22,167 bases of DNA, taken from IMG/VR virus record IMGVR_UViG_3300046002_004013, positions 1 to 22,167 of that record; one strand, written 5' to 3'. Of the stretch, positions 813 through 21,241 are shown piece after piece (the stretch's first letter is position 1; every line of letters begins with the position of its first letter). The notes below the pieces were generated by a model that was given only the letters and a program-made list of their open reading frames with translations, was not told the origin of the DNA and ran no database searches. The stretch is from a virus. The translations under genes were made by a program, and so were the position numbers.

Positions 813-1434
813 CTGCGCTCATTGCGGAGTCCAGTTTTCACCAGTTAGCTTTAAAAGGTCTGGCGGAAAGGAAACAAAATATTGCTCTAAGCAATGTAAC
901 GCAAACGCTTGGTATGCTAAAAAATCAGGTGGAAAAGTAATTGAGAAAAGAACCTGTGTTCATTGCAAAAAAGAATTTGTAAATCATGCTACGGTACGAA
1001 ACCAAAAAACATGCTCACCAGAGTGTTCTAAAAAACAAACTTACATAAGCCATAAAGAAAAAAGAATAGCTTACAATCAAGAATGGGCGCGTAACAATAG
1101 GGACAAAACTAGAGTCTATCACCGAAAACATTATGCAAAAAATAGTATAGAGTTATCTACAAAAAAACGACTAAGACGAGTAAAAATTTCTTTAGAGCAA
1201 TGGGAAATGATTTGTAACTCTTATCAAAATAAATGTGTGCAATGTGAAGTTGAATTGCCTGCGAACAAATTAACCATTGACCATATTATTCCTCACTCAC
1301 TAGGTGGAACGCATGAAATTAATAATTTACAGCCCATGTGTATGCGATGCAATGTTTTAAAGGGCAATAGGTACATTGGATTAATTCCAGAAAATATATT
1401 TAATAAAAAGGTTGAAAAAAATGATAACAGCTAA
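805..1434 (+). CDS. HNH endonuclease with two N-terminal zinc fingers
   Basis: A 209-residue protein. Two CxxC...CSxxC fingers (C4/C7/C27/C31 and C51/C54/C70/C74) precede a basic linker and a C-terminal HNH domain: CVQC (144-147), the DHIIPHSLGG core (H160 as likely general base), NNLQP and CMRC (179-182). HNH enzymes of this kind nick or cut DNA and in phages are often mobile homing-type nucleases. I chose ATG 805 over the in-frame TTG at 793 because GAGG lies six bases upstream of 805. It overlaps the endolysin start by 14 bases. It has the same orientation as its neighbours, unlike the other two HNH genes in the window. Confidence 0.85.
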   Translation: MINCAHCGVQFSPVSFKRSGGKETKYCSKQCNANAWYAKKSGGKVIEKRTCVHCKKEFVNHATVRNQKTCSPECSKKQTYISHKEKRIAYNQEWARNNRDKTRVYHRKHYAKNSIELSTKKRLRRVKISLEQWEMICNSYQNKCVQCEVELPANKLTIDHIIPHSLGGTHEINNLQPMCMRCNVLKGNRYIGLIPENIFNKKVEKNDNS

Positions 1435-1837
1435 ACAATGTCAAGAAAAATACGGAAATCCTGATTCACAAAAATTTATGACACTTTGGGATGTCCCTAC
1501 AGAATTAGAATTAGGAGTAATCCCTAAAAGAGTTTATTGCAATAAAGATATGGTAGTGCCTTTAACTCAAGCGTTTAAAAATATCATTGAACGCGACTTG
1601 GTAGATGAATTAAAAACATGGGATGGTTGTTTTAACATTAGACAAAAAAGAGGAGCATTAAGTCCTTCTTTACATTCTTGGGCGGTAGCTATTGATGTTA
1701 ATGCTGCATGGAATGGCTTTGGTAAAACCCCAACAATGTCAAAAGAGCTTGTAGCTTGTTTTAAAGATGCAGGATTTGATTGGGGTGGTGATTGGTCAAA
1801 ACCTGATGGTATGCACTTTCAGCTAAAGGCGATTTAA
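1421..1837 (+). CDS. endolysin, M15-family peptidase
   Basis: A 138-residue peptidase of the VanY/L-alanyl-D-glutamate peptidase type (peptidase M15_4). The metal ligands are visible: H85 and D92 in the SLHSWAVAIDV segment and H132 in the DGMHF segment, with GFDWGGDW just before it. It would cut peptide cross-links of the host cell wall at the end of infection. ATG 1421 is preferred over TTG 1412 because AAAGG lies nine bases upstream. There is no signal peptide, so it needs a holin; holin-like genes are at 16922-17574. The Rz/Rz1 pair follows directly. Confidence 0.88.
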   Translation: MITAKQCQEKYGNPDSQKFMTLWDVPTELELGVIPKRVYCNKDMVVPLTQAFKNIIERDLVDELKTWDGCFNIRQKRGALSPSLHSWAVAIDVNAAWNGFGKTPTMSKELVACFKDAGFDWGGDWSKPDGMHFQLKAI

Positions 1838-1838
1838 T

Positions 1839-2267
1839 ATGATGCTATTAACCTATTGGAAACAGTTTGTTGCATTAGCTCTGTTCTTAGCAGGTGCATA
1901 CTTAGGCTACTCATACGAACACGCAAAGTTTGAAGCATTTATCGCTAAGGTTGAAACTGAGGGTAAAATTGCAGAAGCACTTAACGCTAAAAAACAACAA
2001 CAACAAACTATCATTTCAAACAATATAGCTAAAGGATATTCAGATGCGGTTACTACTCTTAATAAGCATTATGCTAACAGGTTGCTCAACAGTCATTCCA
2101 AAAGCAGTTCAATGTCCGAAGTTTCCAGCACCACCGAAACAACTGATGGAAAAACCGAGGTCGTTACACCTGATTCCACAAGAGATGCTTCCGTAGATTG
2201 TGCTTTAGATGCTTTACAGCTCATTTATCTACAAAGTTGGATTGAGAATCAAATAACGATAGAATAG
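1839..2267 (+). CDS. Rz: inner-membrane spanin (Rz-like)
   Basis: A 142-residue type II membrane protein. A short cytoplasmic N-terminus and one membrane segment (about residues 9-25, VALALFLAGAYLG) precede a long periplasmic coiled-coil-like region rich in Lys, Gln and Ala, ending in DCALDALQLIYLQSWI, a C-terminal motif typical of Rz proteins. It starts one base after the endolysin stop (ATG 1839 or 1842), with AAAGG at 1825-1829. It joins with the Rz1 lipoprotein encoded inside it to fuse inner and outer membranes at lysis, which implies a Gram-negative host. Confidence 0.85.
   Translation: MMLLTYWKQFVALALFLAGAYLGYSYEHAKFEAFIAKVETEGKIAEALNAKKQQQQTIISNNIAKGYSDAVTTLNKHYANRLLNSHSKSSSMSEVSSTTETTDGKTEVVTPDSTRDASVDCALDALQLIYLQSWIENQITIE
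2044..2196 (+). CDS. Rz1: outer-membrane spanin lipoprotein (Rz1-like), embedded in Rz
   Basis: A 50-residue protein in a different frame wholly inside the Rz gene. It begins MRLLLLISIMLTGCS: a very short signal peptide with the lipobox LTG-C, so Cys14 would be lipidated. The rest is proline-rich (VIPKAVQCPKFPAPPKQ), as in Rz1 proteins. AAAGGA at 2031-2036 lies seven bases before ATG 2044. Location, length, lipobox and composition all fit the o-spanin partner of the surrounding Rz gene. The stop is TAG at 2194-2196, before the Rz C-terminal motif. Confidence 0.88.
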   Translation: MRLLLLISIMLTGCSTVIPKAVQCPKFPAPPKQLMEKPRSLHLIPQEMLP

Positions 2268-2828: not shown

Positions 2829-2856
2829 TTCGCATTTTTTACTTTTCTGATACTAT
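2829..2856 (+). promoter_or_regulatory. possible promoter of pqqA
   Basis: TTCGCA (2829-2834), a 16-base spacer and TACTAT (2851-2856) with the extended -10 TG at 2848-2849. Each hexamer matches four of six consensus bases. Transcription would start near 2863 and give a leader of about 36 bases. This is a weak match on its own; the isolated position of pqqA makes it plausible. Confidence 0.35.
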
Positions 2857-2898
2857 TAGTCATGCTCAATAAAGAGCTAACTAATTAGGAGAAATACC

Positions 2899-2970
2899 AT
2901 GTGGACTAAACCTGTAGCAAATGAGTTAAGATTCGGCTTCGAGGTAACTCTTTATATTTGCAACCGCTAA
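2899..2970 (+). CDS. pqqA: PqqA, precursor peptide of coenzyme PQQ
   Basis: A complete 23-residue peptide starts MWTKP, has NELRFGFE in the middle and ends EVTLYICNR. It shows the PqqA hallmarks: W2, K4-P5, G13, the ExxxY core with E15 and Y19 (the two residues cross-linked by the radical SAM enzyme PqqE and then converted into PQQ), and a basic end. From memory the Klebsiella peptide has the same length and about 15 identical positions. AGGAG (2887-2891) lies seven bases before the ATG; a terminator follows seven bases after the stop. No pqqB-E genes are in the window, so maturation would depend on host enzymes. The peptide is consumed one per PQQ, so extra copies could raise PQQ supply for quinoprotein dehydrogenases such as methanol dehydrogenase. 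It is too short for most gene callers. Confidence 0.9.
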   Translation: MWTKPVANELRFGFEVTLYICNR

Positions 2971-2976
2971 TATATG

Positions 2977-3000
2977 AAGCCCCTTAACTGGGGCTTTTTA
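2977..3000 (+). terminator. intrinsic terminator of pqqA
   Basis: AAGCCCC (2977-2983), a TTAACT loop and GGGGCTT (2990-2996) form a perfect seven-base-pair stem ending in five Ts. It closes the pqqA transcript and separates it from the convergent HNH gene. Confidence 0.92.
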
Positions 3001-3468
3001 TTAAAATATTTTACTAATTATTTCTTTGTAATATTCTTTTGCAACTTTTTTTGCTTCATTTAAATCCTTATAATATCCAACGTGAATTGATTTGCTATTA
3101 ACAGTAAAACTTACTTTGTAATATTTTCTGTCTTTACTTACACCTCTAATTCCAGTATTGCTTATTTTACAGCTTCTATTTAAAGCGTTTGAAACAGAAT
3201 CTGCTAATCTTAAGTTTTCAATTCTATTGTTACCTGGGTTTCTGTCTATGTGGTCTATTTGTTTATCTAAAGGTATTTCTTTGTTAAACAATACCCACAC
3301 TAATCTATGAGCGCTATAAGCAATTTTATTTATTTGAACTTTTGAATATCCTGCTGCTGTTGTAGTGCCAGCTATCTTGTCATTCTTTTTCCAAAACAAC
3401 AATCCATCTTTGTAATATAGAGCTTCAGAAATTTCTTCGTAATCTATTGGTTTTACTTTATAAGCCAT
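3001..3468 (-). CDS. HNH endonuclease with C-terminal AP2 domain
   Basis: A 155-residue protein with an HNH core (AHRLVWVLF, then IDHIDRNPGNNRIENLR, then NALNR) and a C-terminal AP2-type DNA-binding domain (TGIRGVSKDRKYYKVSF...HVGYYKDLNEA). This is the common layout of free-standing phage homing endonucleases, which spread by cutting related genomes and being copied in during repair. AGGA lies about eight bases upstream of the ATG. It faces pqqA tail to tail and its stop abuts the pqqA terminator. It shares orientation with the early operon but is separated from it by a 116-base gap. Confidence 0.87.
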   Translation of the reverse strand: MAYKVKPIDYEEISEALYYKDGLLFWKKNDKIAGTTTAAGYSKVQINKIAYSAHRLVWVLFNKEIPLDKQIDHIDRNPGNNRIENLRLADSVSNALNRSCKISNTGIRGVSKDRKYYKVSFTVNSKSIHVGYYKDLNEAKKVAKEYYKEIISKIF

Positions 3469-11861: not shown

Positions 11862-12005
11862 ATGATGAAAGATAACAAAGCATACGATAAGCTAGAGAAG
11901 CAAGAAGAAGCTATTGACATGAAGAAGAAAAAGCTAAAAGAAGCAGCTATGGATAAAATGATTCGTGATATTGTTCGTAGCGAGATGAACACTAAGAAAA
12001 AATAA
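11862..12005 (+). CDS. small charged helical protein (47 aa)
   Basis: A 47-residue, almost wholly helical Lys/Glu-rich protein (MMKDNKAYDKLEKQEEAID, ends EMNTKKK). It starts two bases after the previous stop and its stop overlaps the glycosyltransferase ATG (TAATG). Possibly a coiled coil; no family recognised. Confidence 0.65.
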   Translation: MMKDNKAYDKLEKQEEAIDMKKKKLKEAAMDKMIRDIVRSEMNTKKK

Positions 12006-12700
12006 TGTTACATATCTATGTGGGTTTTGATGGTAAGGTAGAACCAATTGCTTACCATACGTTTTGTCAGTCTGTCATAGAACACAGCAGTATTCCTGTA
12101 TCGTTCACACCATTAGCGTTGAATACGTTGAAGGACTACCAAGAGAAGCATAAAGACGGCAGTAATGCTTTCATTTATTCTCGATTCCTAGTGCCTTATT
12201 TAAACGATTACAATGGTATTGCTCTGTTCTGTGATGGCGACATGATATGTAATGGCGATGTAGCAGAACTACTAGAGCTTGCAGACCCATCATTAGCTGT
12301 ACAAGTCGTTAAGCACGACTACAAGACAAAGCATCCTGTTAAATACTTAGGTGCAAAAAATGACGATTACCCTAGAAAGAACTGGTCATCTGTCATCTTA
12401 TGGAATTGCCATCATTGGCAAAACAAGAAGCTCACACCTGAATTGGTGATGGAATCTACCGGCTCATACCTTCATAGGTTTAGTTGGCTTGAAGATAGAT
12501 TTATTGGTGACTTACCTGTAGAGTGGAATTGGTTAGAGACTGAGTACGAATACAATCCTAACGCAAAGCTTATTCATCACACACTAGGTACACCATGCTT
12601 TAAAGATTATCAATACTCCCCTTACTCACATGAATGGTGGAGTACATATCACAGAATGATTTATCCTTTAACAGGGGATAATAAAACAAGTAACTTATAG
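12005..12700 (+). CDS. glycosyltransferase, GT-A type (GT8-like)
   Basis: A 231-residue protein with a GT-A N-terminus (MLHIYVGFDGKVEPIAY), SRFLVPYL, the metal and nucleotide-sugar binding DGD motif (CDGDMICNGDV, D77/D79), a NWSSVILWNC strand and a C-terminal LIHHTLGTPCF segment, all typical of family-8-like enzymes. It would transfer a sugar from a nucleotide donor to an unknown acceptor: virion protein, phage DNA or host surface. It lies just upstream of packaging genes in the late operon, favouring a virion or cell-surface target, but this is inference. Confidence 0.8.
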   Translation: MLHIYVGFDGKVEPIAYHTFCQSVIEHSSIPVSFTPLALNTLKDYQEKHKDGSNAFIYSRFLVPYLNDYNGIALFCDGDMICNGDVAELLELADPSLAVQVVKHDYKTKHPVKYLGAKNDDYPRKNWSSVILWNCHHWQNKKLTPELVMESTGSYLHRFSWLEDRFIGDLPVEWNWLETEYEYNPNAKLIHHTLGTPCFKDYQYSPYSHEWWSTYHRMIYPLTGDNKTSNL

Positions 12701-13154: not shown

Positions 13155-13481
13155 ATGGAAAATCAAAAAGATATAAACGAAACAACTAGCAAGGGCGGAG
13201 CGCCTGAAGGAAACAACAATGCAGGCAAAGGCTCACAGCTTACAGCTATGCTAAGAGCAGCACTAAACGCTAATGACAGACAACGTTTAAGACAAGGTGT
13301 TGATAACGTAGCTCAAGCATTTGCAGAAGGCGAACGCTGGGCTGTTGAGTTTGTATTTGACCGTATTGAAGGTAAAGCTGTAGCTCGTACAGAGTTATCA
13401 GGTGCAGACGGCTCTCCACTTCCATTATCTATAGGTATATCTTTTGTCGAACCCACTAGCACAATTTCCGAAGAAGCTTGA
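13155..13481 (+). CDS. terS: terminase small subunit-like protein
   Basis: A 108-residue protein. The N-terminus is Gly/Asn-rich (GGAPEGNNNAGKG) and is followed by a helical region (LTAMLRAALNANDRQRLRQG, then AFAEGERWAVEFVFDRIEGK) that matches small DNA-recognition subunits of phage terminases. Its 3' end overlaps the large subunit by 38 bases, the usual arrangement. It would select phage DNA for packaging. Small subunits diverge strongly, so the call rests on both pattern and position. Confidence 0.75.
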   Translation: MENQKDINETTSKGGAPEGNNNAGKGSQLTAMLRAALNANDRQRLRQGVDNVAQAFAEGERWAVEFVFDRIEGKAVARTELSGADGSPLPLSIGISFVEPTSTISEEA

Positions 13482-14697
13482 TTTCCTATTTGAGCCTTCA
13501 CGTATCAAGGCTATCTATGGTGGTCGAGGATCAGGCAAGTCATGGGGAGTAGCTAGAGCGTTACTCATTATGGGTGCTAACAAACCTTTACGTATCCTAT
13601 GCGCTCGTGAAGTTCAAAAGTCTATCAAGCAATCAGTACATACATTACTAAGTGACCAGATACAAGCATTAGGTCTAGGCTCATTCTTTGAGATACTAGA
13701 AGCAGAGATTAGAGGACAGAACGGTACATTGTTCAGCTTTGCTGGTCTAGCAAGCAACACAGTAGAATCTATTAAGTCTTTTGAAGGCTGTGATATTGCA
13801 TGGGTAGAAGAAGCTCAGACAGTATCTAAACGCTCATGGGATATTCTAATCCCTACTATTCGTAAGCCTAGCTCTGAGATATGGGTAACATTCAACCCTG
13901 ACGTTGATACAGATGATACTTATCAGCGCTTTGTAGTCAACCCACCTGAGTTCGCTAAAGTAGTAAAGATTAACTGGAATGATAATCCTTGGTTTCCTAA
14001 CGTACTAGAAGAAGAACGCTTACACAGTCTAGCTCACAATCCTGACTACAAGAATATTTGGGAAGGTGAATGTAAAGCTGCTGTTGACGGTGCTATCTAT
14101 GCTAACGAGATTAGAGAGGCTCAAGAGAATGGCAGGATTACTACAGTTCCTTACGACCCTATGCTTAAAGTTCATGTGGTGTTTGACCTTGGTTGGAACG
14201 ACTCTATGTCTGTTATCTTATGTCAGCGTGGGGTTAGTGACATCCGTGTTATTGGCTACATTGAAGATAATCATCGCACGCTTGACTCATATTCTAGCCA
14301 GCTTAAATCATTAAACTACAACTGGGGTCAGATGTTCTTACCACATGACGGTAGAACTAAAGACTTTAAGTACGGTATAAGCGCAGAAGATATTATGCGT
14401 AAGCAAGGATGGGATGTACGTATTGTACCTATGGCTGATATAGAGTCAGGTATTAAGATTGCACGTATGAACTTCCATCGCTGTTACTTTGATAAAGCAG
14501 CAACACAGTTAGTAGATTGTCTGAAACACTATAGACGTTCTATTAACTCTAATACACAAGAGCCAGGCGCTCCATTGCATGATGCTTACTCACATGGTGC
14601 AGATGCTTTCAGATACATGGCTACCTCTATAGATGAAATGAAGAATGAATCTTGGGGTGGTGACAAAATAAATTACTCAAGCAAAGGTATAGTCTAA
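13444..14697 (+). CDS. terL: terminase large subunit
   Basis: A 417-residue packaging motor. ATPase: Walker A GGRGSGKS (26-33), Walker B CDIAWVEEA (116-124) and a TFNP coupling motif (149-152). Nuclease: VVFDLGWND (D248), HDGRTKDF (D302) and the HDAYSHGADAFRY segment near the end. This fits the PBSX/Terminase_3-like group. The start is TTG at 13444, with AGG about nine bases upstream; no ATG occurs before Walker A. It overlaps the portal gene by one base (TAATG). Confidence 0.92.
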   Translation: MSNPLAQFPKKLDFLFEPSRIKAIYGGRGSGKSWGVARALLIMGANKPLRILCAREVQKSIKQSVHTLLSDQIQALGLGSFFEILEAEIRGQNGTLFSFAGLASNTVESIKSFEGCDIAWVEEAQTVSKRSWDILIPTIRKPSSEIWVTFNPDVDTDDTYQRFVVNPPEFAKVVKINWNDNPWFPNVLEEERLHSLAHNPDYKNIWEGECKAAVDGAIYANEIREAQENGRITTVPYDPMLKVHVVFDLGWNDSMSVILCQRGVSDIRVIGYIEDNHRTLDSYSSQLKSLNYNWGQMFLPHDGRTKDFKYGISAEDIMRKQGWDVRIVPMADIESGIKIARMNFHRCYFDKAATQLVDCLKHYRRSINSNTQEPGAPLHDAYSHGADAFRYMATSIDEMKNESWGGDKINYSSKGIV

Positions 14698-17873: not shown

Positions 17874-20747
17874 ATGGCATTTGCTAGAACCACAGCAGTA
17901 TCGGGAACAGGTACAGTATCATGTGCTGGTACTACTACAGTTACAGGTAGCGGTACAGCGTTTGCCTTTTCTATTGGCGCAGCACCTGCAACTAACGCCC
18001 CTCGTGTTGGCGGTACAATTACAGTTGGTGGTGTTACTAAAACAATTACGGCTATTGCTTCTGCTACCTCATTAACGGTTGATTCAGCCTTTGGTACGTT
18101 CACAGCTCAAGCGTTTACTTGTCAAACAGGTATTACGCAAACAGGCACAGACACAATGAACCTGAGCCTTGGTGCTGCAACAGGTTTTACTATTACAAAC
18201 CGTGGCGACCTTTTCCGCACGTTTGATGTGGGCGGCCAAGACTTGTTCATTGAAGGAACATTGACAGTAGAATCAAGGGTAGCACAGCTACGCAATGATG
18301 GCTCATGTGCAAACCGATTTGAAGTGCTTGGTAGTGCAACTGGTGGCGAAGTCATCTTTAACGGACGCAAAGCAGCAGCAGCCAATGCGCCATTCCCTTA
18401 TCCAGGCTTTGATTGGCTTGGTCAAAACGGCAACAAGATAATGAAGCTAAGAAGTACCAATGCTACTTACCCTGCTAAGTTTACAATCATTGATGCTTGT
18501 GTTCGTTTCGGTGCGGATTGGTTGACAACGGATTCAGGAAACTTCTCACGTGTAACTACTCAAGGTGATGTGTGTTGGATTCTTTGTGCAAGGGGGACAG
18601 GTACTTCACAAGCACGTTTAAGACAAGATAACACCACAGCATCTATTGACTTCCAAGCAACTAAAACATTTGTCGGTGTATGGCTTAACTTTGGCGTACC
18701 ACAATTAAGTATTAAAGGCTATACACCTATTGATACAGATGGACCAGAGATTAACTTAGCATCAGTTCCAACTGCCTCACGGATTGTCATTGAAAACTAC
18801 TTAACTACTTATGTATTGCCTTCGTACTATGCTGGCGTTCAGATTGTGTTACTTGGTTCAGCATGGGCTAGATTAAAAAACAACTTGTTAGGTACTAACA
18901 TCTCGTGGCGTAGTTCAAGCTCATCTGGTGGCCGTCATAACGTAATTGAGTTTTCTAAGCAAATTACTATTAGAGCGCAAGATGCGGCTGGTAACTTATT
19001 ATCAGATGGCTTTATGTACTATCAACCTGTTGGTTCAAACGTAGCAGGGGTTCGGGCTAAAGGCATTACATCAGACATTACCTTTGACCTATCACAGCAA
19101 GCAATAGCGACTGTAAGTGGTGCTGCAACAAGTGAGTTCCCATTTGCATGGGGTTATACAACAGCTACAACAAACTTATCTTCATACAGTTATTTCTGTA
19201 CAGGTACAACACGTGGTGCTGAAACTCACGTAATCAGTTCAACTCGTTATGGGTATGACAAACAAAGTGCTACCGTTTCTTTAGCTGGTAACAATGATGC
19301 AACACCTACATACGTTCATGCTTCATTACCAACGACTGATAAAGTAATTGCTAATGCTGCTGCTATTACAGGTGTAGCATTTAACTTTAGCACTAAGACA
19401 ATGACTGTTACAGGTACTCTTACTGTTCAACAGATTTATGATGCTTACCAATATCAGTTAAATCAAACAGCTAACTTACAAACAGCTAACGAGTGTACTG
19501 TTGCAAATGGACAAACATATTATGTAGGATGGACTATTAACAATAGTGGCACTATTACTCCAGGTACTAGCTTAACAAGTATTAGAGCTAACACTATTAC
19601 TAACACAGGTACGATTACTGCTATTTACCAAGACAGCAATGGTACTTCTACTACATGGGAATTTCAAGACGTTGAAGTAGGTACATCTCTCGCTATCTAT
19701 GATGGCTCTGGTGTTACTAAATACTTCCAAGGTGAAGTAGCTACTGCTGGTACATATCGCTACTACATTCCACCAATGGCAACAGGCGTACCTTACACCT
19801 ATGCTATTGAGAAGTACGGCACAAGACGTGAAACAGGTAGCTTCCCTAGTAATGCTGGTGGGGTCTTATTCTACGTTCCTGCGTATGCTGAGGATGTAGG
19901 TATTACAGAAATAAATAAAGCGACTGTAGCGGCTTACACAGCTATTGATAACTTAGATAAGTTTTATGATGCAGTGGCTGTCTATCGCTTATCTGAAACA
20001 GGCATTAAGTTAGGCCAACTAGCAGAGCGTAACGGTAGTGCTGTAGATATTGGTACACATAGCTTAGTTGTTAATCAGTCAGCTTCTGTAAACGTAACGG
20101 CAACAAGTAGCTTGATTACTATTAAGTCATCTACGCTTGCTAACGGTACTAAGTTCACATTGATTACAGCAACACCACCTAAGACTGTTACGGCTAACAC
20201 AAATGAGGTTATTTCAGCTTCAATTGAGGATGCTAATGGTAACAGCTCAGTAACGATTCAAGGTGGCTCTGGTGACTTCACATTGTGGAAAATCACTAAC
20301 GCTACAAGTGAAGATGATTACGCTACAGGTACTGACTTAGGTGATGTGGGCAATATTACTTATCGTTTCTTATCAGACCCTGGCTTTAAGATTGTTATTC
20401 GAGATAACATTACTTCCTTCCGTCAGGTAGTGCCAATGGACAAGGGTATTTACACTAGAGGTTTATTCTTTGGTGACCAAGTTCAGTTAGCGCAATCTGC
20501 TGAAGTAACGCAAATCAATAACAAGGTAGATATCTTACAGGCTGACGTTGACAACATCATGGGTAGCTTTGATGTATCTACAGATAACCTTGCAGCTATT
20601 AGTGATACGCTTGATTTAGTTAAGGACAAGACAGACGGCTTAACCTTTACTCAAGCAGGTGTCATTGATGCTAACATTCAATATGTAAATGATATTGAGG
20701 TTAAAGGCACAGGCGAAGATGACGACCCATGGAACCCAATTGATTAG
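17874..20747 (+). CDS. tail fibre/tail spike protein (957 aa)
   Basis: A long beta-rich protein full of Gly, Thr, Ser and Asn. The N-terminal 100 residues are made of short GTG/TVTG-type strands; the middle contains sheet-forming sequence (FDVGGQDLFIEGTLTVESR). Near residue 885 comes a heptad-like coiled coil (VTQINNKVDILQADVDNIMG), then LDLVKDKTDGLTFTQAG and a terminal GTGEDDDPWNP, features common in phage tail fibres. It would recognise the host surface. AAGGA lies upstream. It overlaps the convergent HNH gene by four bases. Confidence 0.85.
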   Translation: MAFARTTAVSGTGTVSCAGTTTVTGSGTAFAFSIGAAPATNAPRVGGTITVGGVTKTITAIASATSLTVDSAFGTFTAQAFTCQTGITQTGTDTMNLSLGAATGFTITNRGDLFRTFDVGGQDLFIEGTLTVESRVAQLRNDGSCANRFEVLGSATGGEVIFNGRKAAAANAPFPYPGFDWLGQNGNKIMKLRSTNATYPAKFTIIDACVRFGADWLTTDSGNFSRVTTQGDVCWILCARGTGTSQARLRQDNTTASIDFQATKTFVGVWLNFGVPQLSIKGYTPIDTDGPEINLASVPTASRIVIENYLTTYVLPSYYAGVQIVLLGSAWARLKNNLLGTNISWRSSSSSGGRHNVIEFSKQITIRAQDAAGNLLSDGFMYYQPVGSNVAGVRAKGITSDITFDLSQQAIATVSGAATSEFPFAWGYTTATTNLSSYSYFCTGTTRGAETHVISSTRYGYDKQSATVSLAGNNDATPTYVHASLPTTDKVIANAAAITGVAFNFSTKTMTVTGTLTVQQIYDAYQYQLNQTANLQTANECTVANGQTYYVGWTINNSGTITPGTSLTSIRANTITNTGTITAIYQDSNGTSTTWEFQDVEVGTSLAIYDGSGVTKYFQGEVATAGTYRYYIPPMATGVPYTYAIEKYGTRRETGSFPSNAGGVLFYVPAYAEDVGITEINKATVAAYTAIDNLDKFYDAVAVYRLSETGIKLGQLAERNGSAVDIGTHSLVVNQSASVNVTATSSLITIKSSTLANGTKFTLITATPPKTVTANTNEVISASIEDANGNSSVTIQGGSGDFTLWKITNATSEDDYATGTDLGDVGNITYRFLSDPGFKIVIRDNITSFRQVVPMDKGIYTRGLFFGDQVQLAQSAEVTQINNKVDILQADVDNIMGSFDVSTDNLAAISDTLDLVKDKTDGLTFTQAGVIDANIQYVNDIEVKGTGEDDDPWNPID

Positions 20748-21241
20748 TTAATACATGCAAATTCACCGTGGAGAACATTAAGATATTTGATTTTTGCTTC
20801 TAAAGCATCATCAAGTGTCTTAAATGTTCCAATATAGTTGATTACATTATTCTTTTTAATTTGAACGTTATATGTGTTATTTCTTGTCAAATAAATATTC
20901 TTAATTTTAGTTGAGCTGTTTTTTTGATGACCCCTATTGCATAGGTTTTCACTATTAGTTGCTGCTCTTAAATTTTCGATTCTGTTGTCAGAAGGATTGT
21001 TGTTAATATGATCTACAATTTCAGGAAGATATCCATAGTGCCAAAGAAAAATAGCTCTATGCTCTCTCATTCTGATGTTAAGAATAGAAATTCTTTTGTA
21101 GCCTCTTTTGTTAGGGACACCACCAACTCTTGTGCCAGCGTTATCTTTTTTGTAGGTGCTTATTTTTCTAATAAAATACCCATCTTCATGATAATCAAAA
21201 GCGTTGAGCAAGTCTTGTTGAGTGATAGTCTTTTCATTCAT
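20744..21241 (-). CDS. HNH endonuclease with AP2-like C-terminus, second copy type
   Basis: A 165-residue protein: ISILNIRMREHRAIFLWH, then the HNH core VDHINNNPSDNRIENLRAA and NLCNRGHQ, then an AP2-like segment (KIKNIYLTRNNTYNVQI, YIGTFKTLDDALEA). It has the same architecture as the protein at 3001-3468 but differs clearly in sequence, so the two are relatives, not recent duplicates. It is antisense to all neighbours and inserted between tail fibre and virion genes, as expected for a homing nuclease. AAAGG lies upstream; it has its own promoter. Confidence 0.85.
   Translation of the reverse strand: MNEKTITQQDLLNAFDYHEDGYFIRKISTYKKDNAGTRVGGVPNKRGYKRISILNIRMREHRAIFLWHYGYLPEIVDHINNNPSDNRIENLRAATNSENLCNRGHQKNSSTKIKNIYLTRNNTYNVQIKKNNVINYIGTFKTLDDALEAKIKYLNVLHGEFACIN

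Follow-up and report, generated by a model that had tools for sequence, protein, structure and literature searches.

During synthesis of the redox cofactor PQQ the precursor peptide PqqA is destroyed, one peptide for each cofactor, and the PQQ enzymes are reused; the PqqA residues fused into PQQ are E15 and Y19. Methylotroph phages abound in coastal waters and in freshwater, and they affect the turnover of both methanol and methane. Cyanophages with psbA carry one piece of the energy machinery of their host, and jumbo methanotroph phages with pmoC have been described in a paper whose text does not mention PQQ (PMC7674155). Phage PqqA itself is already known: the Lake Baikal T4-like virus VP_266 was reported in 2020 to encode PqqA and a viral methanol dehydrogenase, and its PqqA was proposed to aid methanol oxidation as an auxiliary metabolic gene (PMC7678222). 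The viral genes of reservoir sediment also include pqqA (PMC13188868). VP_266 resembles the locus described here in that a phage PqqA was proposed to serve methanol oxidation, but it is one metagenomic population, reported with methanol dehydrogenase, and neither a general enzyme-free trait nor its occurrence in isolates was recognised. PqqA is likewise unmentioned in the papers describing the phages Venkman, Melnitz, MEP301 and MEP401/402 (PMC8163748, PMC8024684, PMC10580990, PMC9004378). The generality of phage pqqA, its orphan, enzyme-free design and its oversight in isolates appear to be new as far as the literature searched shows.

The window analysed here is a 22,167-nucleotide stretch of viral DNA in which positions 2899-2970 (+) translate to MWTKPVANELRFGFEVTLYICNR followed by a stop codon (2968-2970). 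The original prediction of a complete 23-residue PqqA at this site was borne out by both PqqA models: PF08042 gave 34.3 bits (E=2.3e-8) against a curated cut-off of 21.1, and the TIGR02107 equivalog gave 36.4 bits (E=3.2e-9) against one of 20. W2, K4-P5, G13, E15 and Y19, which had been named as matching the family, were all present in the translation, and E15/Y19 constituted the E-x-x-x-Y motif (a Glu and a Tyr separated by three other residues) of the PQQ backbone. N8, L10 and L18 were unusual. With 23 residues, its own start and a ribosome site (AGGAG), the ORF was of the size of PqqA peptides (~22-30 residues). A chance match was rejected on the model scores and on control contigs: the PqqA model scored at most 9.7 bits on 81 control phage contigs found via neighbouring genes, 80 of which share only the M15 endolysin with the window, whereas the peptide is kept in at least 269 viral loci.

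The gene is flanked by candidate expression signals. The Shine-Dalgarno sequence AGGAG lies at 2887..2891 (+), 7 nt before the pqqA start, and an extended -10 promoter-like element, TGATACTAT (TGn followed by TACTAT), was read directly at 2848..2856 (+), 42 nt before the ATG. This putative element has no good -35 and was omitted by the promoter consensus scan. The predicted Rho-independent terminator hairpin GAAGCCCC-TTAACT-GGGGCTTT with its T-rich tail (2976..3001, +) begins 5 nt past the pqqA stop, folds with -15.5 kcal/mol (z=-4.0), and likely ends the pqqA transcript; a simple terminator scan omitted it, which probably reflects pairing of some tail T residues within the stem. From the Shine-Dalgarno sequence, the -10-like element and the hairpin, the window pqqA looks like a one-gene transcription unit. 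The placement of the gene in a lysis/late region therefore held in part: it adjoins lysis genes, assigned from context as an M15-type endolysin (1412..1837, +) and an Rz-like spanin (1839..2267, +; E=8e-4), but looks like a separate transcription unit rather than a member of a late operon.

Upstream of pqqA lies an uncharacterised phage protein (2377..2796, +) without a PHROG or Pfam match. Its single distant viral relative (locus L249) is without pqqA and belongs to a different phage of other layout, with the terminase large subunit (TerL) close behind, so that it offers no test of the pqqA site. On the other side, an HNH endonuclease (3001..3468, -; phrog_99, E=4e-47) is convergent with pqqA. 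Three HNH endonuclease genes fall within the 22 kb (793-1434, 3001-3468 and 20744-21241), and a family-8 glycosyltransferase-like gene lies at 12005-12700, upstream of the packaging genes. TerL (13444..14697, +, from context), which was used as the query for relatives, and portal genes are on the same contig as pqqA.

DNA pattern scans of IMG/VR returned at least 119, at least 120 and 7 contigs, and in total at least 269 viral loci with at least 102 distinct peptides in at least 31 flanking-sequence contexts were collected. W2, P5, R11, G13, E15 and Y19 were invariant in all 102 distinct viral peptides listed; for most loci the invariance of E15 and Y19 is partly by construction, as the main IMG/VR patterns fixed these two codons, and the two main patterns left the codons of W2, P5 and R11 free. 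For the 23 loci recovered with no codon prescribed, pN/pS was 0.21 for the whole gene, 0.28 for codons 2-12 (leader) and 0.16 for codons 13-23 (core). A Shine-Dalgarno sequence preceded 99% of 102 non-redundant viral pqqA genes compared with 10.6% of random sites, a terminator-like hairpin followed 29% compared with a background of 4% (a roughly seven-fold enrichment), and an exact TATAAT was found 25-75 nt upstream in 20% of phage pqqA compared with 2.3% of the background.

Retention was followed through TerL. PqqA was present in 16 of 50 tested records with a TerL near that of the window, and the records lacking it included many short fragments; PqqA was carried by 13 of 15 such relatives of at least 24 kb and by all nine of at least 35 kb. 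No broken frames or neutral pN/pS were seen in close relatives. The expectations set out beforehand, conservation of E15/Y19 across phages, a dN/dS well below 1 and retention by related phages, were thus matched by these counts, with the codons of the two residues fixed in most loci. Three loci found through TerL had the core FGMEITAY or LGMEITAY, in which F14, V16 and M18 were changed and the Glu and Tyr kept. GME-core phage PqqA (L411, L413, L415 and L568-L574; FGMEITAY where read) resembles the alphaproteobacterial GMEVTSY and has a Methylophilaceae-type leader; a bacterial host form of it was not found. Phage pqqA is accordingly a cellular-type gene that is retained by phages under purifying selection, as is expected of an auxiliary metabolic gene.

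These data bear on two readings in which the peptide would do nothing. The pqqA transcript would be ~140 nt long with a strong terminator, and might be taken for a small RNA or leader in which the ORF is incidental; this is scarcely credible, since it is the amino-acid sequence that is conserved, divergence is much greater at synonymous than at nonsynonymous sites, and nearly every pqqA copy has a ribosome site. It is also highly improbable that pqqA is a functionless passenger, derived from the multi-copy pqqA of hosts and kept by drift and frequent recapture. Hosts do have several copies, short genes are easily captured, and phage and host share identical peptides, yet a pN/pS of ~0.2, a Shine-Dalgarno sequence in 99%, the seven-fold enrichment of terminators, retention in 9/9 long TerL relatives and occurrence across unrelated phage types all speak against drift.

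A tblastn search of PqqA against 50,697 phage records gave 12 records, comprising nine Methylophilales/Methylophilaceae isolates (Melnitz x4, Venkman, MEP301, MEP401, MEP402 and P19250A), one virome genome and two labelled Acinetobacter phage. PqqA was present in all nine Methylophilales/Methylophilaceae isolate genomes seen in this collection; the taxonomy-named HIM624-A (partial genome), phiMB624-A, Venkman EXVC038S, MEP431-434, MG-MTP1 and RSA-MFP1 were not seen in it and stand outside this count. The carriers span the T4-like Melnitz, the P19250A/Venkman group, MEP301 and the Zobellviridae MEP401/402, and the best DNA matches of the window in the collection were MEP401/402 and Venkman. Like the window, these isolates have an orphan pqqA of 23-24 residues, but they belong to other phage groups and carry it at other genome positions. 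The recurrence of pqqA in cultured phage genomes excluded host DNA joined to the window by assembly error, one of the outcomes that had been named as fatal to the original prediction. Between MEP301 and 6 kb of Venkman, DNA similarity was limited to a patch around pqqA, which suggests that the gene may move between phages as a cassette.

Gene callers had been expected to miss so short a gene. Indeed, none of the ten genuine GenBank phage records names PqqA: no annotation stands at pqqA in Venkman, P19250A, MEP301, MEP401 or MEP402, and the ORF called there in Melnitz-1 and in the virome genome lies on the strand opposite pqqA. The hypothetical CDSs antisense to pqqA in Melnitz-1 (2961-3056, -) and MW202481 (2067-2195, -) are probably false gene calls. 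The records labelled 'Acinetobacter phage MD-2021a' (CAKLQF020000010.1 and CAKLQH020000055.1) were rejected as PqqA phages and regarded as misfiled bacterial DNA; the former was inspected, carries pqqBCDE and ppk, and looks like a bacterial chromosome. Apart from these contigs, tblastn found no PqqA outside the Methylophilales/Methylophilaceae guild in the 50,697 records, and none in the Pseudomonas phages, of which the collection holds at least 379. An alphaproteobacterial PqqA query found nothing outside Methylophilales phages.

The phages carry the precursor gene by itself. No PqqE scored above cut-off in 126 viral records (119 from IMG/VR and 7 genuine GenBank phage genomes), with weak radical-SAM matches below the cut-off in two large viral records. 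No PqqB, C, D or E was found by tblastn in the viral loci, with bacterial loci giving 26-48 matches as the positive control; the pqqABCDE arrangement, with pqqB-E alongside pqqA, was therefore absent from the viral records. The claim that the phage supplies the substrate only agrees with these results. A PQQ-dependent alcohol dehydrogenase (TIGR03075) was found in none of 44 phage records tested, so any benefit must run through host enzymes.

On this evidence the window probably encodes a functional pqqA of a lytic methylotroph phage, acting as an auxiliary metabolic gene that provides host PqqB-E with substrate and nothing else. Extra PqqA peptide would be made from the phage's own promoter, ribosome site and terminator. 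Host PqqD would bind it, PqqE would join Glu15 to Tyr19, and host proteases with PqqB/PqqC would complete PQQ. When the phage halts host expression, the enzymes would remain and the peptide would run short. Since one peptide is destroyed per cofactor and the enzymes are reused, a phage would need to carry only the consumed part, which is also the smallest, for PQQ-dependent methanol dehydrogenase (XoxF/MxaF) to stay supplied; a positive effect of phage PqqA would presumably be exerted via this enzyme. As with cyanophage psbA, the phage would replace the consumed part and the host supply the rest, and as with jumbo-phage pmoC (PMC7674155) the phage would bring one piece of host energy machinery; both of those genes encode enzyme subunits, in contrast to PqqA, a precursor of which one is consumed per cofactor. 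A summary of the PqqE step that crosslinks Glu and Tyr is given in PMC9851590.

The same steps admit a decoy, in which the phage peptide would occupy PqqD/PqqE or other PqqA-binding factors and lower host PQQ, altering for example the redox state. Any peptide whose leader is intact would bind PqqD/PqqE in that case too, and the enzymes are not carried by the phage. A decoy is nevertheless unlikely, because it would have no need of the crosslinked residues, yet E15/Y19 were kept in the FGMEITAY variants with changed neighbours. The core, moreover, is the most constrained half of the peptide (pN/pS 0.16 as opposed to 0.28 in the leader), and cutting the energy route of a methylotroph would probably harm the phage.

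PQQ also has redox roles outside dehydrogenases. Extra PqqA might accordingly serve PQQ as an antioxidant or signal in infection, and the window pqqA is situated beside lysis genes. This is quite unlikely, as among annotated phage genomes pqqA was confined to phages of C1 oxidisers, was not found in any of the numerous phages infecting the PQQ producers Pseudomonas and Acinetobacter, and co-occurs with PmoC on two jumbo phages. The latter are contigs of 372 kb (L101) and 172 kb (L058) with the methanotroph-like PqqA MKWETPSYNDIRFGFEVTMYICNR and PmoC (L447 and L446), and their PmoC places them alongside the jumbo phages of methanotrophs described in PMC7674155. PqqA and PmoC on these contigs touch two successive steps of methane oxidation.

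Supply of PqqA to host methanol oxidation may have a wider bearing. With less confidence than for the window itself, we favour the view that PqqA supply is a near-universal need of lytic growth in C1 bacteria, and that a lone pqqA has repeatedly been acquired by unrelated phages as a 'psbA of methylotrophy' that donates the consumed precursor, this 70-base gene marking phages of methylotrophs and methanotrophs. The part suspected to be limiting in infection is PqqA rather than the PQQ enzymes. Few metabolic genes are listed in the papers on methylotroph phage isolates, and the one that these phages appear to share is so short that gene callers miss it. Precursor peptides can escape surveys of viral metabolic genes. 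As a sequence tag, pqqA ties viral contigs to methylotroph hosts, and the cultured phage-host pairs allow a direct test of the role of PqqA.

A methylotrophic or other PQQ-dependent host had been proposed. Consistent with this, a bacterial genome pattern scan for this PqqA type, biased towards A+T-rich genes, returned overwhelmingly methylotrophs and methanotrophs among the matches listed. Among these matches the C-termini differed by clade: VMNK/VCNR in Methylophilaceae, ICNR in Methylophaga and IYNR in Methylococcaceae. The window peptide was nearest to Methylophilaceae peptides (18/23 identical), and that of phage P19250A was the commonest Methylophilaceae one among the matches listed, unchanged. 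The host of the window phage is thus most likely a methylotroph of the Methylophilaceae. The window gene shares with bacterial, especially Methylophilaceae, pqqA its length, the leader W-x-x-P and the core G-F-E-V-T-x-Y, and differs in being phage-borne, in a record without pqqBCDE.

All 100 sampled Methylophilaceae genomes had pqqA, in 1-12 copies and usually at least two, which suggests that pqqA dosage matters in this family. A published methylotrophic PQQ producer has five pqqA copies, three of them solo, of which pqqA1 and the solo pqqA3 are expressed most (PMC9851590); extra precursor copies are therefore already normal in such hosts. A large class of phage PqqA ends in VANR/IANR, and its sole bacterial match among those listed was the Betaproteobacteria TMED22 (L166), in which a pqqB-like gene follows one pqqA and a second pqqA lies elsewhere.
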